Source: Lysinibacillus contaminans (lineage in GTDB: Bacteria; Bacillota; Bacilli; Bacillales_A; Planococcaceae). From it: a stretch of 64,000 nt of DNA. This document shows positions 23,737-48,629 of this stretch, one piece after another. Numbering within the stretch: the first letter of the stretch is position 1; each line of letters opens with the position of its first letter. The notes below the pieces were generated by a model. That model was not told the origin of the DNA. It was given only the letters and a program-made list of their open reading frames with translations, and did no database searches. The stretch spans positions 2,046,001 through 2,110,000 of the forward strand of contig NZ_LGRV01000003.1 in NCBI RefSeq assembly GCF_001278945.1. The letters are read 5' to 3'. The translations under genes and the position numbers were made by a program.

Positions 23737-24273
23737 TTATTTTAATTGCATCGTTGTAATGCAAGTACCATCCTTTTCAGAAGTAGAGAACTTTGACTCT
23801 ACCATTTTGCCTTCGTGCTTCATCTTTATGTTATACGTTTGATCACGAGGTAGCCATAAATCAATAAATCCATTCGCTGGAGTTGTCATTGTTTCATCCA
23901 CTATCACATTACCTTTCGAATCTTCAATGAAAACATCAATCTCTTTATTCACCATCTCACCTTGGCATCCAGTCAAACTATGGTTTGTGCAAGGATGAGT
24001 TTCATTTATGTATGGAGCAATCGAAACAAAAAATTCGTCTTCTGGCAAACCATATGTTGACTCTTTGTCTTCTTTATCAGTCACAATCAGTTGCTTAGAT
24101 GTGATTGAAGCAGATTCACCTTCAATTTTACTCCCGCTATAATTATTCACCAATTCCTTGATATCTTGCGTTTCAATTTCTTTTGTAGGGTTATCTACAT
24201 TAGCACTTTCTCCATTACAAGCACCTAACACAACAGTAGCAAACAAAGTTGCAGCAAAGATTTTTAATTTCAT
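23737..24273 (-). CDS. CueP family metal-binding lipoprotein
   Basis: A 178-residue exported lipoprotein. The signal peptide ends in the lipobox VLGAC, so Cys19 is the lipidated residue. The mature part matches the CueP family: FFVSIAPYINETHPCTNHSLTGCQGEMVN with two cysteines, GFIDLWLPRD, and a C-terminal DGTCITTMQL with the third. In enterobacteria these three cysteines bind periplasmic copper. Here the protein would sit on the outer face of the membrane and may buffer copper or supply it to enzymes. No copper pump or CueR-type regulator is adjacent. It is a single-gene unit with its own terminator. Confidence 0.87.
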   Translation of the reverse strand: MKLKIFAATLFATVVLGACNGESANVDNPTKEIETQDIKELVNNYSGSKIEGESASITSKQLIVTDKEDKESTYGLPEDEFFVSIAPYINETHPCTNHSLTGCQGEMVNKEIDVFIEDSKGNVIVDETMTTPANGFIDLWLPRDQTYNIKMKHEGKMVESKFSTSEKDGTCITTMQLK

Positions 24274-24419: not shown

Positions 24420-24423
24420 AAGA

Positions 24424-24466
24424 AAAAGGATTGGCACAACGAATATTTCGTTGCGCCAATCCTTTT
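24424..24466 (-). terminator. Terminator of the ribA-ribD-monooxygenase-HAD operon
   Basis: A 20-bp stem with one GU pair (24447-24466 with 24424-24443) ends in a short T-rich tail on the leftward strand. It touches the last codon of the HAD gene. Confidence 0.85.
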
Positions 24467-25029
24467 CATTCGTTAATCATATCTAAAAATCCATGCCAAT
24501 GATAAAGTCGTGCTAGTGGTACATGTTGATTGTACGATTGATTTTTTAAGATAACTTCTGTCTCTACATCTTGTAGCGTTTCAAGTACTGCTGGTTTATC
24601 ATCTACGTAAACATCCAGTGCTAATGATTTAATAGTCGCAACTTTTTCATGATCTTGCATCCCACAAAAGAAGTGCCCTTCTGTGACAGGGAAGCCTTGC
24701 GCAATCATCCATTCACGTGTTTTCTCACAATATTGTTTTGGACGTGACGTTATATAGTAAATGTCATGTCCCTCTTGCTGCAATGCTTGTAATGTTTCCA
24801 GCGCACCTTCAAAAATTGGACAATCCGTAAAATAAATATCCTCTAAAGAGCTATTCCACATAACAGAACCTTCTGCATCACTTAATCCAAATGGCTCGTG
24901 AATTTCAACTCTTTGCAGTGCATGAAAGGCTTCAATTCCTACATTTTTACCTAGTTTTTTATTATAAAGATCAAAAGCATGAGCGCGTAAATCGATTAGT
25001 GTGTCATCAATATCAAAACCAAATTTCAT
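24466..25029 (-). CDS. HAD hydrolase, 5'-nucleotidase (NT5C) type
   Basis: A 187-residue HAD phosphatase. Motif I is DIDDTLID at residues 5-12, motif II is YYITSRP near 93, and motif IV is DVYVDDKP near 140. All catalytic aspartates are present. The family contains deoxyribonucleotidases and the YqfW/YorS-type enzymes. It begins 15 bases after the monooxygenase and closes the operon. In riboflavin synthesis an HAD phosphatase removes the phosphate from the RibD product, so this enzyme may act on that intermediate here. That role is inferred from context. Confidence 0.82.
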   Translation of the reverse strand: MKFGFDIDDTLIDLRAHAFDLYNKKLGKNVGIEAFHALQRVEIHEPFGLSDAEGSVMWNSSLEDIYFTDCPIFEGALETLQALQQEGHDIYYITSRPKQYCEKTREWMIAQGFPVTEGHFFCGMQDHEKVATIKSLALDVYVDDKPAVLETLQDVETEVILKNQSYNQHVPLARLYHWHGFLDMINE

Positions 25030-25044
25030 CTTTTTTTGTTCCTT

Positions 25045-26130
25045 TCAAGAAGCAGTTTCTAAGAAGTTTGCGGCAAAGGTTTGTTCTTTTTCGATTTGCT
25101 TCGTCAGTACTTCATTAATGTCAGGCTCGCGCATTTGCTGGAAAACCTGTACGTCGAATTGTGCAATCGTTTCTTTCGATAATAATGATGCAAGACAATC
25201 CGCATCCTTAAGCGCACTATTCAAACCAAAGGCCCCAGTTGGCGTCATTGTATGGACCGCATCTCCTAAAAGTACGAGTCCCTCTGTTCCCCAACTGTCA
25301 CAATGGCTACTAAATACATCTAGTAATACGAAATCTCGCCAAGATTGAATATGTTGTACCACTATCTCAGTTAAATCTGGAAAAGCTTTTGTTAGCTGTT
25401 GAATGAATGGTGTAAATGCTTGCTTTCGAAGTTCTGAAAAACTACCTTGTTCAATATTCCAACCAATTTGAATAAACCCATTTGTCTGTGCAAATAATGA
25501 CAATTGCTTATCACCTATGAGTGCCATTTTTATAGCAGGCTCCCATCCTTTCGGGGCAGGAATTTTTGCCCACAGTAAATCAAAGCCATGCTTACGTTTA
25601 GCCATATCAATGTGCGACTGCTTACGAATCGTGGAATAACGACCATCCGCCCCAATAATAAGCTGACTGGCAATCTCAATCGATATACCATCTTTAGAAG
25701 CGACCACCCCAACATAGCGCCCTGACTCATCTGTCGCAAGTTGTGTAACTTTCGTGTTTAACATACAAGTAAAGTGTGGGAATTGATGCGTTTTGTCTAA
25801 AATGACTTTTAGCAAATGCGCTTGCGGCACATGTATACCTAGGTGACCCACTGTTGGATCCGCAACGATAGTTTTAAACAATTGCCCATTATTGAAATAT
25901 TCAAGTTTTTCCATCCGTAATAAACCATGGGCTTCGATTGCTTCAAATAAATTATGACTCTTTAAAACAGCCTCACCCTCTTCATTTAAATGCTCGCCGC
26001 GAAATGCTTTCCCAAGCTCTGCGTTTTGTTCAAGTAGTATCACTGATAGTCCTTTTTTCGCAAGTAAATAACCAAGAAGAGCACCACCAGGACCAGCTCC
26101 TACAATGCAAACATCCGCTTCATAACTCAC
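25045..26130 (-). CDS. FAD-dependent monooxygenase (PHBH fold)
   Basis: A 361-residue flavoprotein hydroxylase of the p-hydroxybenzoate hydroxylase/UbiH group. It has GAGPGG for FAD at 11-16, the RGEHLN motif near 44, the DG motif GADGRYSTIR near 160, and the second FAD motif GDAVHTMTPTGAFG near 290. No membrane anchor is seen. Its GTG start overlaps the ribD stop (GTGA), so it is translationally coupled to ribD and probably oxidises a compound made by that pathway. It is not part of normal riboflavin synthesis, and its substrate is unknown. Confidence 0.85.
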   Translation of the reverse strand: MSYEADVCIVGAGPGGALLGYLLAKKGLSVILLEQNAELGKAFRGEHLNEEGEAVLKSHNLFEAIEAHGLLRMEKLEYFNNGQLFKTIVADPTVGHLGIHVPQAHLLKVILDKTHQFPHFTCMLNTKVTQLATDESGRYVGVVASKDGISIEIASQLIIGADGRYSTIRKQSHIDMAKRKHGFDLLWAKIPAPKGWEPAIKMALIGDKQLSLFAQTNGFIQIGWNIEQGSFSELRKQAFTPFIQQLTKAFPDLTEIVVQHIQSWRDFVLLDVFSSHCDSWGTEGLVLLGDAVHTMTPTGAFGLNSALKDADCLASLLSKETIAQFDVQVFQQMREPDINEVLTKQIEKEQTFAANFLETAS

Positions 26131-27236
26131 TTTTCGTCACCATTCTTTGGGTAAGCGATAATGCGTAAATCATGACCAACTTTTTCAAACGAATCAAATT
26201 CAACGTCAAATGCTTCGTCCATCGATGTGGCGCTATGACCAGCAATTGGTGTTAACGACAAACGACCGCCTAACACTTTCGGTGCTACATATATAATGTA
26301 CTTATTAATGGCACCACTTTGTAAAAAGGACGCATTCACTGTGCTACCACCCTCAACTAAAATATCCGTAATACCTAGCTGATAGAGTTTTTCAAGCATT
26401 TCATCAATATCAAGTCTCTTATGTTCACTGCGAACCGGTAGCATTATTACACCATTTTTTTCAAAGGCAGCAATTTTCTCTTGGTCTACATCTTCACTAC
26501 AAACAATGATCGTTTTTGCTTCTTCGACATTAAGCACATTCGCGTTTTCCCGTGTTCGGAGCGAACTGTCCATAATAATACGTACAGGATTTTTACCTTT
26601 GACTCCATTCAATCGTGTAGTCAATGAAGGATTATCAGCAATCACCGTACCAACGCCTACTAAAATACCATCTACTTCATGGCGAATATGATGGACATCT
26701 TCGCGTGCTGCTTCGCCTGTCACCCATTTTGAATGTCCAGTATGTGCGGCAATCTTCCCATCTAATGTCATCGCATATTTTGAAATTACAAAGGGGCGAC
26801 TTGTACGCATATTGTGAATGAAGCGTTCGTTTAAACGACGAGACTGCGCTTCTAATACACCCACTTCTACTTCAATCCCTGCATCACGAAGTAGTTGAAT
26901 GCCACGACCTGCCACATCGGGATTAGGGTCTTGCATCGCTACAACAACACGACTTACTTCAGATTCCTTCACCAAGTTCGCGCAAGGAGGTGTTTTCCCG
27001 TAATGTGAACATGGTTCGAGTGTCACATATAATGTCGCACCTTTTGCATGCTCCCCTGCCATACGAAAAGCATGGACTTCAGCATGTGGCTCACCAGCTT
27101 TTCGATGTAACCCTGTACCCACAATGACGCCGTCTTTCACAATGACTGCACCTACTAATGGATTCGGGTTCGTATGTCCCTTTGCACTCGCTGCTAAATC
27201 AAGTGCTAATTGCATATATTTTTCATCCGTCGTCAT
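26127..27236 (-). CDS. ribD: Bifunctional RibD deaminase-reductase
   Basis: A 369-residue enzyme giving 5-amino-6-ribitylaminouracil 5'-phosphate from the GTP cyclohydrolase II product. The N-terminal cytidine-deaminase-like domain has the zinc site HAEVHA and PCSHYGKTPPC. The C-terminal reductase domain has KYAMTLDGKIA, VGVGTVIADNPSLTTR and the NADPH-binding LVEGGSTVNASFL. Both halves look intact. It follows the cyclohydrolase by 17 bases and overlaps the monooxygenase by four. The GTG just before ATG 27236 is also in frame. ribE and ribH are absent from the operon. Confidence 0.93.
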   Translation of the reverse strand: MTTDEKYMQLALDLAASAKGHTNPNPLVGAVIVKDGVIVGTGLHRKAGEPHAEVHAFRMAGEHAKGATLYVTLEPCSHYGKTPPCANLVKESEVSRVVVAMQDPNPDVAGRGIQLLRDAGIEVEVGVLEAQSRRLNERFIHNMRTSRPFVISKYAMTLDGKIAAHTGHSKWVTGEAAREDVHHIRHEVDGILVGVGTVIADNPSLTTRLNGVKGKNPVRIIMDSSLRTRENANVLNVEEAKTIIVCSEDVDQEKIAAFEKNGVIMLPVRSEHKRLDIDEMLEKLYQLGITDILVEGGSTVNASFLQSGAINKYIIYVAPKVLGGRLSLTPIAGHSATSMDEAFDVEFDSFEKVGHDLRIIAYPKNGDEK

Positions 27237-27253
27237 CACTAATGTCCCCCCAC

Positions 27254-27985
27254 TTACTTCATTTCACGCATATGTCCAGATTTTTCAACCTTTGTATTCA
27301 AGTAGAGTTGATTTGTTTCTGTCACGCCGCCCCATAATGGTACATGTCCTTCTGCTGCTAAACCGTGTGATTCTAATGCGGCTAGCTTTTTCGGATTATT
27401 GGTAATCAGTGTCACTGGTTTTGTGCGAAGTGCTTCTAGTACAGTCATGGCTTCCTCGTAAGAACGTGTATCATCAGGGAAACCAAGTGCATGGTTTGCT
27501 TCAACTGTGTCTAGGCCTTCTTCTTGTAATAAATAGGCTATTGATTTTGAAAATAAACCGATGCCACGGCCTTCATGATCCGCTAAATAGAAAATAGCAC
27601 CACACCCATGTTCAACAATCATTTTCATAGATTCATGCAGTTGATAGCCACAATCACATCGCTGGCTACCAAAAATATCGCCAGTATGACAAATGCTATG
27701 CATGCGTATCATTGCATTATCTGCATTAGCAAAATCACCGTAAACAAGGACAGATGATTGTTGTTGAAAGGCTAAATTTGCTGTCGCAAGTGAATCAATA
27801 ATTTCTTCTTTTGAAAGATTCACCTTCACCTTTAGCCAGTTATACCATTGGAATGTCGCTGAAAAATCTCCTTGTTTTACGGGTAATTCTATGGGACCAA
27901 CGATACATATATTTTCTGTTTCAGATTGCTTTATAATACTCATCTTATCTTTAACTAAATCCATTATTTTCGTAGTAATTGTCAT
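27254..27985 (-). CDS. ribA: GTP cyclohydrolase II homologue
   Basis: A 243-residue stand-alone cyclohydrolase II, which opens GTP to a diaminopyrimidine. The zinc and catalytic core is present: MHSICHTGDIFGSQRCDCGYQL, DHEGRGIGLF and TVEANHALGFPDDTRSY. It departs from housekeeping RibA where YGIGAQIL normally follows; here the sequence is YEEAMTVL. It also has an N-terminal extension of about 60 residues. The open frame begins 12 bases upstream with a TTG that is itself part of the GGAG ribosome binding site, so the ATG at 27985 (six-base spacing) is preferred. It heads the operon, with no FMN riboswitch upstream. Confidence 0.88.
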   Translation of the reverse strand: MTITTKIMDLVKDKMSIIKQSETENICIVGPIELPVKQGDFSATFQWYNWLKVKVNLSKEEIIDSLATANLAFQQQSSVLVYGDFANADNAMIRMHSICHTGDIFGSQRCDCGYQLHESMKMIVEHGCGAIFYLADHEGRGIGLFSKSIAYLLQEEGLDTVEANHALGFPDDTRSYEEAMTVLEALRTKPVTLITNNPKKLAALESHGLAAEGHVPLWGGVTETNQLYLNTKVEKSGHMREMK

Positions 27986-28226
27986 CATTTTCTCCAACTT
28001 TCTATCGTGAACAGCTAGGGCAGTTGCCTAACTGCGTGCTTATATTCACACATCACTTACATAACGTAACTAAGTTTATTATAATAACCAACTTGTGTCA
28101 AATACCAACTCTTATTTTAGTACAATATTATGCACCTTTTTTATTATATATAGATGTGCTATTTTTTCAGGACAGGCTGGTCTATAATAGGCAAAGATAG
28201 CTCTTTAAGATGAAAGGAAGTTATGA
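27986..28226. promoter_or_regulatory. Divergent promoter region between ribA and the BusR-like gene
   Basis: No RFN element is found here: GGGTGAAATTCCC and CCGGCGGTAA are absent. A small hairpin GCAGTT/AACTGC lies near 28019-28034 in the ribA leader. A TATAAT at 28183-28188 can serve the rightward regulator gene. Confidence 0.4.
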
Positions 28227-28862
28227 ATGAACTTAGAAAAAAATGTTCAGGTGAAGCAGCCAAAATATCAGCAAATTGCGGTAGACCTCGCCTCGAAAAT
28301 AGTAGAAAAAAAATATCAAGTAGGCGATAAAATATATGCACGATCCTCACTCGCAAGCCAATATAATGTATCTGCTGAAACTGCAAGAAGAGCCATTGCT
28401 GTTTTACAGGATTTAGAAATTGTTGAAGCTTCAAAAGGGAGTGGTGTATTCATTAAATCATATGAAAAAGCAGCTCAATTTGTCCGACAATTCCATGATG
28501 TTCAGTCAGTGCATGAGCTACAAAATGAGTTACTAGTAAGTATTCGTAACCAACAAAATGAATTGTTGAATTTGCAAGAAAAAACAAAGCAGCTCATTAG
28601 CCGAACTGAACATTTCCGCTCCGTAAATCCCTTCATACCCTATCAGATTGAAATGACGATGGAAAGCCCATGTATTCAGCAAACACTACAAGCCTTAAAT
28701 TTTTGGCAAAATACCTCTGGAACAATCGTTGGTATTCGCCGTAGCAACGAATTATTACTATCCCCCGGCCCGTATGCATCGCTTGAGGATGGCGATATTA
28801 TTTATTTCATTGGTAATGATGAAAGTTTAGCGCGTGTCCAAAATTTCTTATACCCAAATTAA
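28227..28862 (+). CDS. busR: GntR-RCK_C regulator of the BusR type
   Basis: A 211-residue transcription factor with a GntR winged helix at about 12-75 (YQVGDKIYARSSLASQYNVSAETARRAIAVLQDLEIVEASKGSGVFI). A coiled coil follows at about 85-130, then a TrkA-C/RCK_C domain at about 135-208 (GTIVGIRRSNELLLSPGPYASLEDGDIIYFIG). This exact order defines BusR, which in Lactococcus and Streptococcus binds c-di-AMP and represses the betaine importer BusAB. Here a betaine importer lies directly downstream behind a long palindrome, so the same logic is expected. The gene name is by family and context. Confidence 0.85.
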   Translation: MNLEKNVQVKQPKYQQIAVDLASKIVEKKYQVGDKIYARSSLASQYNVSAETARRAIAVLQDLEIVEASKGSGVFIKSYEKAAQFVRQFHDVQSVHELQNELLVSIRNQQNELLNLQEKTKQLISRTEHFRSVNPFIPYQIEMTMESPCIQQTLQALNFWQNTSGTIVGIRRSNELLLSPGPYASLEDGDIIYFIGNDESLARVQNFLYPN

Positions 28863-34975: not shown

Positions 34976-35104
34976 AAAAAAGCCAGAAGAAACACTGTAA
35001 AAACAGTATCTCCCAGGCTTTTATCCTTCCGTGTCACAAAAAATGAAGATGAATTTGTGGTTTTCTCTCGGTCCAGACTAGCAGTAGCTACGGAACCCTA
35101 GAAA
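34976..35104 (-). ncRNA. Guanidine-I (ykkC) riboswitch
   Basis: The leftward leader of the SMR pair carries the conserved ykkC-class blocks in order: CTAGGGTTCCG near 35100-35090, GGACCGAGAG near 35072-35063, and ACACGGAAGGATAAAAGCC near 35034-35016. The 3' part GCCTGGGAGATACTGT folds with ACAGTGTTTCTTCTGGC into a hairpin ending in TTTTTT at 34976-34981. This class turns genes on when guanidine is bound by preventing that terminator. Blocks and terminator are seen directly; ligand and mode follow from the class. Confidence 0.95.
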
Positions 35105-35143
35105 ACTTTTATATCTAATTGTAATTTTAGTATAGCAAACAAC

Positions 35144-47501: not shown

Positions 47502-48089
47502 TTATTTTGTTAAATACATCGCACGTTGTTGGTCAACCCATTTACGCATCGTTGTATACAATAGCGCCATTATTAACGTTATTAAAACACCTTTCACAAG
47601 GTTAAATGGTAAAATACCCGCTACGATCATTGTATATAATGAATTTCCAACAACCGGCTCCATACCTAAGAAGTATGTGTACATTGGTAAAAACACAGCG
47701 TAGTTTAAGAAGCTCATACCAACGGCCATCGTTACTGTTCCCACAACTAAACCACTTACAAGACCAGACATTGTTTTAAAGCGATTAAAAATAAATGTTA
47801 CTGGTAAAATAAATAAAATTCCTGTTGCAAAGTTTGCAATATGGCCAACAGGTACCCCTGTTGGTGTGCCCGAGAAGACCCAATCTAGCACATTCTTAAA
47901 TAATTCTACTAAAATACCCGCTACCGGTCCCATTGTGATTGCTGCGATAAGTGCAGGCATGTCACTGAAATCCACTTCTAAAAACGCTGGAAATGGTGGA
48001 ATTGGGAAATTGAAAAGCATTAGTAAAAATGAAATACTGCTGAGCATACCAATCGTAATAAATGATTGTAGTTTAAGATTTTTCTTCAT
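47502..48089 (-). CDS. ribU: Riboflavin ECF transporter S component RibU
   Basis: A 195-residue membrane protein with six helices that binds riboflavin and works with a shared ECF energising module. The motif SFLLMLFNFPIPPFPAFLEVDFSDMPALIAAITMGP is the hallmark of RibU. The frame continues 33 codons upstream, but GAGGAGAG precedes ATG 48089. A complete FMN riboswitch and terminator lie upstream, so import is switched off when flavin is plentiful. Confidence 0.95.
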   Translation of the reverse strand: MKKNLKLQSFITIGMLSSISFLLMLFNFPIPPFPAFLEVDFSDMPALIAAITMGPVAGILVELFKNVLDWVFSGTPTGVPVGHIANFATGILFILPVTFIFNRFKTMSGLVSGLVVGTVTMAVGMSFLNYAVFLPMYTYFLGMEPVVGNSLYTMIVAGILPFNLVKGVLITLIMALLYTTMRKWVDQQRAMYLTK

Positions 48090-48163
48090 TGTAAAACTCT
48101 CTCCTCTTTGCTGATTCGATCTCACAAGAAGAGAGGCCACGATGCTATCGATTCCTGTCCACG

Positions 48164-48193
48164 AAAAAACCCCTATGCACGAAAGCATAAGGG
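48164..48193 (-). terminator. Riboswitch-controlled terminator before ribU
   Basis: Read leftward, CCCTTATGC (48193-48185) pairs with GCATAGGGG (48178-48170), followed by TTTTTT. It lies between the FMN aptamer and ribU and is the likely expression platform. Confidence 0.85.
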
Positions 48194-48317
48194 AGAATAG
48201 GCATGATTAAAAAACGCCATTTATAGCTATTTTTTTTGCGCAAACTGTGTAAAAAAGATACACAAAAAAACGTTCGCACATAGCTACAATTCGTAACAAC
48301 GAATGACGATCGTACCT

Positions 48318-48504
48318 CCATCTTCTCCCATCCAGACTGTAACTGTCGGCCTTGGAATCACACCAAGTCAGCCATGCAAAAAAATTGCACAGGTCGCGGG
48401 CTGAAGAGTAGTATTGTAAATTTTCGAGTTTGTGTAATTTTAAAATACACAAACAATTTACGACTCTATTACCGCCGGTAGGGAATTTCACCCTGCCCCG
48501 AAGA
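48318..48504 (-). ncRNA. FMN riboswitch (RFN element)
   Basis: Read leftward, the leader of ribU contains the RFN blocks in order: GGGGCAGGGTGAAATTCCC, ACCGGCGGTAAT, AGCCCGCGACC, GGTGTGATTCCAAGGCCGACAG and CAGTCTGGATGGGAGAAGATGG. These build the six-stem FMN aptamer. One helix is lengthened by a long AT-rich inverted repeat near 48416-48458. A terminator follows at 48164-48193. Binding of FMN is expected to end transcription early. Confidence 0.97.
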
Positions 48505-48629
48505 TGAATCAATATTATTTTATCTTACAACTCTACTATAATGAATTATGATGCAAAAGTAAATAGTTCCGCTTAAAAATTATTCCTATTTGTTTTGTAT
48601 GCATTAAACAATTTTATTCTAGCTATGTT

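Follow-up and report, generated by a model that had tools for sequence, protein, structure and literature searches.

In toxoflavin clusters, GTP cyclohydrolase II and RibD are recruited alongside a methyltransferase and further Tox genes, and the COG3236 N-glycosidase, which is genetically linked to riboflavin genes, is a directed-overflow enzyme proposed for riboflavin intermediates. In Bacillus subtilis, the first half of riboflavin synthesis (the A branch) is formed by RibD and the GTP cyclohydrolase II part of RibBA. The subject of this report is a four-gene operon of the soil-type bacterium Lysinibacillus contaminans, located at 24466–27985 on the reverse strand of the window, that is, the whole 64,000-nucleotide stretch analyzed here (positions 2,046,001 to 2,110,000 of contig NZ_LGRV01000003.1, assembly GCF_001278945.1). 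The operon shares with the B. subtilis A branch the RibA and RibD families, the predicted chemistry, and the aligned catalytic residues. Unlike the B. subtilis genes, it stands as a separate unit, has no flavin mononucleotide (FMN) riboswitch, encodes a single-domain RibA, is joined to genes for a HAD phosphatase and a class A flavin adenine dinucleotide (FAD) monooxygenase (hereafter FMO), and belongs to a genome in which no ribE, ribB, or ribH (ribEBH) was found. The enzymes of riboflavin synthesis are said to work exclusively for riboflavin in the available portion of a published account (PMC12051542).

The operon is read here, with moderate confidence, as the A branch with the FMO as an accessory oxidase, in a lineage that would have lost ribEBH, would import riboflavin, probably via an ECF (energy-coupling factor) transporter led by an FMN riboswitch, and would now put the operon to a non-flavin use. 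As we infer the enzyme activities, the FMO substrate, and this second use, RibA would open GTP, RibD would deaminate and then reduce the product, and the NT5C-type HAD enzyme, most likely the phosphatase of the pathway, would take off the phosphate to give 5-amino-6-ribitylaminouracil (5-A-RU), the most likely product of the operon. The FMO, an accessory enzyme tied to the A branch, would most likely oxidize the RibA product or 5-A-RU, whether to form a product or to control overflow. In relatives, 5-A-RU would also supply a separate ribE-ribB-ribH locus controlled by FMN riboswitches.

The operon consists of the following features:

27254–27985 (−): RibA, a single-domain GTP cyclohydrolase II; ~70 N-terminal residues precede the profile match
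26127–27236 (−): RibD, a bifunctional deaminase/reductase, full length
25045–26130 (−): FMO, a class A FAD monooxygenase, with a GTG start and a 4-base overlap with ribD
24466–25029 (−): NT5C-type HAD phosphatase, a candidate 5-amino-6-ribitylaminouracil 5'-phosphate (ArPP) phosphatase
24423–24467 (−): intrinsic terminator after the HAD gene, a strong hairpin of 20 pairs

The initial annotation had described four leftward genes with a 17-base gap, a 4-base overlap, and a 15-base gap, closed by a terminator, and rechecking of the coordinates and start codons found this layout right throughout. In profile searches, RibA matched PF00925 at 154.6 bits and NF001591 at 193.9 bits (cut-off 148) and stayed below the TIGR00505 equivalog-domain cut-off (174.5 vs. 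205.85 bits); the profiles and the alignment with the Escherichia coli enzyme (2bz0) identify it as a GTP cyclohydrolase II. Three cysteines, which we take to be zinc ligands, and the aligned Tyr and Arg of 2bz0, presumably catalytic, are preserved in the window RibA. Its deviation from the motif YGIGAQIL, which had been regarded as a sign of non-housekeeping function, is real, but the motif is also absent from 2bz0, whose corresponding stretch differs from it as well, and the deviation was therefore rejected as evidence for a new function. RibD reached 408 bits against TIGR00326 (cut-off 156.35), contains both the deaminase and the reductase domain, and aligned with the B. subtilis RibD structure 2b3z (E 5e-109) with its catalytic residues in register, which identifies it as a RibD. 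The FMO belongs to the class A flavin monooxygenases by its PF01494 (FAD_binding_3) match of 123.9 bits, and the residues of GxGxxG, DG, and GD, which we take to be the motifs of this class, are invariant in A1 and largely kept in A2. The fourth protein is an NT5C-type HAD enzyme (PF06941, 46.7 bits, cut-off 24.8) with the DxD nucleophile motif in the form FDIDDT, and its gene context makes it a candidate ArPP phosphatase.

Riboflavin genes in the strain and its relatives

The strain assembly comprises 4.1 Mb in 9 contigs, of which the window's contig accounts for 2.6 Mb, and is rated 86.26% complete. The only GTP cyclohydrolase II in this assembly is the operon RibA, and the only full RibD is that of the operon; two further open frames, of 201 and 193 codons, encode short RibD_C proteins. 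No ribH (PF00885), ribE (PF00677, searched in this genome only), or ribB (PF00926) was found in this 86.26% complete assembly, and a complete bacterial riboflavin pathway is accordingly not present among the genes found. The genome-wide search suggested by the initial annotation thus found no ribE, no ribH, and no second ribA or full ribD, within an assembly of 86% completeness. Because ribE, ribB, and ribH were not found and the single GTP cyclohydrolase II and full RibD lie in the operon, the genes seen cannot have riboflavin as their end product. In the relative L074, the DNA on either side of ribEBH has counterparts on the window's contig C1, in the same order and ~18.5 kb apart. Between these flanks, C1 is free of N and of rib genes (best chance match E 0.048). 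An assembly gap was rejected as the cause of the missing genes at this place since the stretch is spanned without N, and judged from the aligned flanks the ribEBH locus is deleted or replaced at its syntenic place.

In the 32 same-genus genomes, including the window's, ribH was found in 30 and the FMO in 27, one of the 27 being broken; the named loci place this genus as Lysinibacillus. A second GTP cyclohydrolase II match is absent in 12 of 13 same-genus relatives carrying the window's RibA type. Three relatives (L073–L075) have a separate ribE-ribB-ribH locus whose RibB is 209–235 residues long and whose open reading frame (ORF) lists show neither ribA nor ribD, and three further rib loci (L152–L154) gave no RibA, RibD, FMO, or HAD match. 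RibD in relatives was examined at loci, and ribD is absent at 24 of the 25 rib loci compared, the exception being L155 (the upstream side of L272 ends with its contig). Seven of the 25 loci carry a full RibBA (L258–L262, L268, and L276), so that the operon RibA is not the sole GTP cyclohydrolase II there, and in these relatives the A-branch operon may serve as the source of RibD. FMN riboswitches were detected at all six relatives' rib loci scanned, with two in five of the six, and at none of seven relatives' A-branch operons.

A dispersed riboflavin pathway, offered earlier as the plain alternative, therefore describes the relatives, which have the operon and a separate ribEBH, but not this genome, in which ribE, ribB, and ribH were not found. 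The proposal of a separate metabolite cluster is not supported as far as origin is concerned: in relatives the operon is the A branch of a split pathway, and loss of the FMO can leave RibA, RibD, and HAD in place. The window's RibA type was also observed in L043, L048, and L050 with no RibD, HAD, or FMO matches nearby.

Retention of the operon in predicted riboflavin auxotrophs

The FMO, ribH, RibA, and CofH counts refer to a drawn sample of 151 genomes of the family, in which a match above ~250 bits was counted as this RibA type and one above ~350 bits as FMO, including G009 and G060, each flagged with one stop. A ribH match is missing in 13 of the 151 genomes; ribB (PF00926) is likewise missing in all 13 and present in all nine ribH-positive genomes checked. 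Seven of the 13 retain the window's RibA type (G000, which is the window's genome, G083, G088, G096, G098, G111, and G150), and RibA, RibD, and HAD are all present and stop-free in every one of them. These correspond to about six separate losses, namely those of the window, G083, G150, the pair G096/G111, and G098 on the tree, together with G088 outside it. Gene absences in G098 are weak because it consists of 450 contigs and is rated 8% contaminated. G083, G096, and G150 are one-contig assemblies, 99–100% complete, that are without ribB and ribH yet have kept the operon. In the window's genome, the apparent loss of the second half of the riboflavin pathway, with the operon for the first half intact and accompanied by the FMO, suggests that this first half has a second job. 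Several predicted auxotrophs with an intact A branch also make the supposed exclusivity of the riboflavin enzymes testable.

The main rival explanation, possible though on the unlikely side, is that the operon is an ordinary A branch without a second function, the remnant of a recent ribEBH loss. It is favored by the same-genus relatives carrying this RibA, of which 12 of 13 have their sole GTP cyclohydrolase II match in the operon, and by relatives' rib loci that have neither ribA nor ribD (L073–L075 and L152–L154). The retention of stop-free RibA, RibD, and HAD in seven of 13 auxotrophs across about six losses speaks against it, as do the rates. Mean distances to 13 reference loci (12 for one gene) were compared between the window and the relative L178, with four neighboring genes as control, and the window/L178 ratios were 1.11 for HAD, 1.18 for FMO, 1.03 for RibD, and 1.24 for RibA, against 1.23–1.37 for the neighbors. 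Such ratios are compressed in fast genes; the differences of distances were 0.005–0.038 for the operon genes and 0.020–0.041 for the neighbors. The window operon proteins are thus not accelerated relative to the four neighboring genes. RibD, FMO, and HAD show no excess in their distances to two outgroups (ranks 1 to 14 of 26). The distance tests speak against decay of the operon, without dating the loss of ribEBH.

Several observations nevertheless weigh against the preferred reading. The FMO is retained in only four of the seven auxotrophs with the operon (G000, G083, G098, and G150) and missing in three (G088, G096, and G111), and it is therefore not the common reason for operon retention. 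Six of the 13 ribH-less genomes have no RibA match, as decay of a relic predicts. The window RibA ranks 26 of 26 in distance from one outgroup and 21 from the other. The tree branches of three auxotrophs are somewhat longer than those of their neighbors, as a relic would also lead one to expect: 0.092 for G150 vs. 0.053 for its nearest neighbor (pairing support 38), 0.134 for G083 vs. 0.107 for its nearest neighbor, and 0.103 for the window vs. ~0.08 for G145 and G550. These branch lengths lean toward a degree of relaxation or an overall rate effect. The normal constraint may also be mostly older than the undated loss of ribEBH. With both sides considered, we lean toward a second function of the operon over a fresh relic.

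Distribution and possible role of the monooxygenase

The FMO was found in 67 of the 151 genomes, all 67 with the window's RibA type; 45 genomes have this RibA only and 39 have neither, so that the FMO occurs in none of the 39 genomes without the RibA, although the sampled genomes are related and not independent. The initial annotation had asked whether the four-gene arrangement is conserved as a unit, and the check gave a positive answer. Among the best 80 of the 200 confirmed FMO loci of named genomes, the order RibA-RibD-FMO-HAD occurs 52 times and FMO-RibA-RibD-HAD eight times, followed by RibA-RibD-FMO with no HAD seen (three), RibA-FMO (two), and stand-alone FMOs (15); L247 is truncated directly behind the FMO and L235 a little farther on, so that their downstream sides are seen only in part. 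Because it was found in 52 of the best 80 FMO loci, the four-gene arrangement is not due to chance. In another family, FMO-RibA is found in one genome (L061), and among L062–L064 of that family two have an FMO with no RibA nearby and one has an FMO broken in two frames. Three genomes that keep RibA, RibD, and HAD (G093, G139, and G558) have a deleted or broken FMO. The FMO is thus linked to RibA, in several orders, and dispensable, and it probably works on an A-branch compound. A contrary indication is that stand-alone FMOs have no neighbor conserved across genera (20 loci), the RibA in L061, L240, and L246 excepted. Among solved structures, the one closest to the FMO in sequence is the flavin monooxygenase of PDB 8uiu (E 7e-43), whose substrate was not found in the literature searched.

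Two further operons were observed in which the FMO has decayed and the other genes are kept: that of Kurthia (L070, genome G009) has an FMO with an internal TAG, and that of L072 (genome G010) has only an FMO remnant between RibD and HAD. An internal stop flagged in the RibA of G139 was rejected, as it marks the natural end of the protein, at aligned position 242.

A tentative extension of the preferred reading is that Bacilli possess a hitherto undescribed non-flavin branch with RibA and FMO at its core, in which the RibA product or 5-A-RU would be turned into an oxidized pyrimidine metabolite with a physiological role, the sole output of the operon in auxotrophs. Somewhat more doubtful is a damage-control or overflow role, in which the FMO would clear reactive, autoxidizing 5-aminopyrimidine intermediates and yield no useful product. 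Such a role would fit an enzyme that is linked to RibA in several orders and yet lost or disrupted in the three genomes G093, G139, and G558 with RibA, RibD, and HAD kept, and overflow is plausible in an A branch that has no FMN riboswitch.

It is improbable that the strain still makes riboflavin through a ribEBH moved to an unassembled part of its genome. The completeness of 86.26% leaves room for this and to that extent weakens the case for auxotrophy, but the assembly has nine contigs, the window's one of 2.6 Mb, the syntenic place is spanned and empty, and ribB and ribH are likewise missing with the operon kept in the one-contig, 99–100% complete G083, G096, and G150. A cluster dedicated to a pyrimidine antimetabolite, toxoflavin-like or other, is the least probable explanation, for although non-flavin compounds can be derived from the RibA product of E. 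coli, an 8-azaguanosine nucleotide having been made from it chemoenzymatically (PMC7109123, as far as the accessible text goes), the operon has four genes with no further tailoring gene recognized beside it in the ORF lists, and in relatives it serves as the A branch. The neighbors scanned or read for a toxoflavin-type cluster are unrelated to it, no Tox-gene profile having been searched. F420 was rejected as a second use, as CofH (TIGR03551) exceeded the cut-off in none of the 151 genomes and had no match in the window's genome. Flavophos, a phosphonate inhibiting lumazine synthase (PMC12871164, in the part available), was set aside as having no bearing on the operon.

Control elements, neighbors, and known systems

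The control elements and the transporter discussed above are the following:

28073–28101 (−): predicted promoter TTGACA-17-TAAACT, in a block conserved in 26 aligned Lysinibacillus operons
28055–28071 (−): operator-like block AGTTACGTTATGTAAGT, 17 bases, strongly conserved across the genus (26 aligned operons)
28012–28034 (−): small hairpin in the leader, in which relatives show compensatory changes (13 operons folded)
48316–48509 (−): FMN riboswitch RF00050, 112.8 bits, upstream of the ECF transporter S component gene
47502–48188 (−): S component of an ECF transporter, predicted to import riboflavin (RibU-like), PF12822 at 104.7 bits

The absence of an FMN riboswitch at the operon, as first noted, was confirmed, and the window's operon is not an FMN-regulated riboflavin operon; the window does, however, contain the FMN riboswitch at 48316–48509 (−), which had gone unmentioned. 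The S component behind it scored 21.1 bits against PF07155 (ECF-ribofla_trS), under the cut-off of 26.7, and the transporter is likely a riboflavin importer, consistent with the predicted auxotrophy. The promoter-like block, the 17-base block, and the leader hairpin (28012–28101, −) are common to Lysinibacillus operons. Promoter-like matches are no commoner in the real sequence than in shuffles, AGTTACGTTATGTAAGT has a single site in the window at up to three mismatches (0.33 expected), and two of the 13 predicted pairs of the hairpin have sequences changed on both sides. A divergent gene for a GntR-TrkA_C regulator lies at 28227–28862 (+), ahead of a betaine-type ABC transporter judged by eye, and its domain pair presumably resembles that of the c-di-AMP regulator BusR. 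A CueP-like copper-binding protein gene (23737–24273, −) is directly downstream of the operon, and a guanidine-I riboswitch is located at 35008–35112 (−).

No description of the four-gene operon or its arrangement was found in the open-licence literature searched. The deletion of ribH in Mycobacterium tuberculosis raised recognition by mucosal-associated invariant T (MAIT) cells, according to the available part of the report (PMC12240317), and a lineage making 5-A-RU without lumazine synthase would, if the proposed reading is true, be of interest for MAIT-cell ligands. The 8-azaguanine pathway resembles this reading in that a cyclohydrolase-type product is led away from flavins; it differs in relying on nitric oxide chemistry, and no tailoring gene shared with it was recognized in the window (PMC7109123, in its accessible part). 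The phosphatases known for ARAPDP/ArPP are HAD enzymes in B. subtilis, E. coli, and Arabidopsis and a histidine-family phosphatase in Aquifex; until the latter was found, the step was described either as unknown or as the work of HAD enzymes that are nonspecific, as stated in the portion available (PMC12051542). The window HAD enzyme is like those of B. subtilis and E. coli in superfamily and predicted reaction, and it is set apart from the known ArPP phosphatases, as that portion describes them (PMC12051542), by its PF06941 NT5C match and its place in an operon with ribA and ribD. The FMO is comparable to COG3236 as an accessory enzyme tied to riboflavin genes, but it belongs to an unrelated class and would act by oxidation rather than N-glycoside cleavage. 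Beside these systems, the operon provides, in its HAD enzyme, a specific candidate for a dedicated phosphatase at this ill-defined step, together with a RibA-linked FMO.

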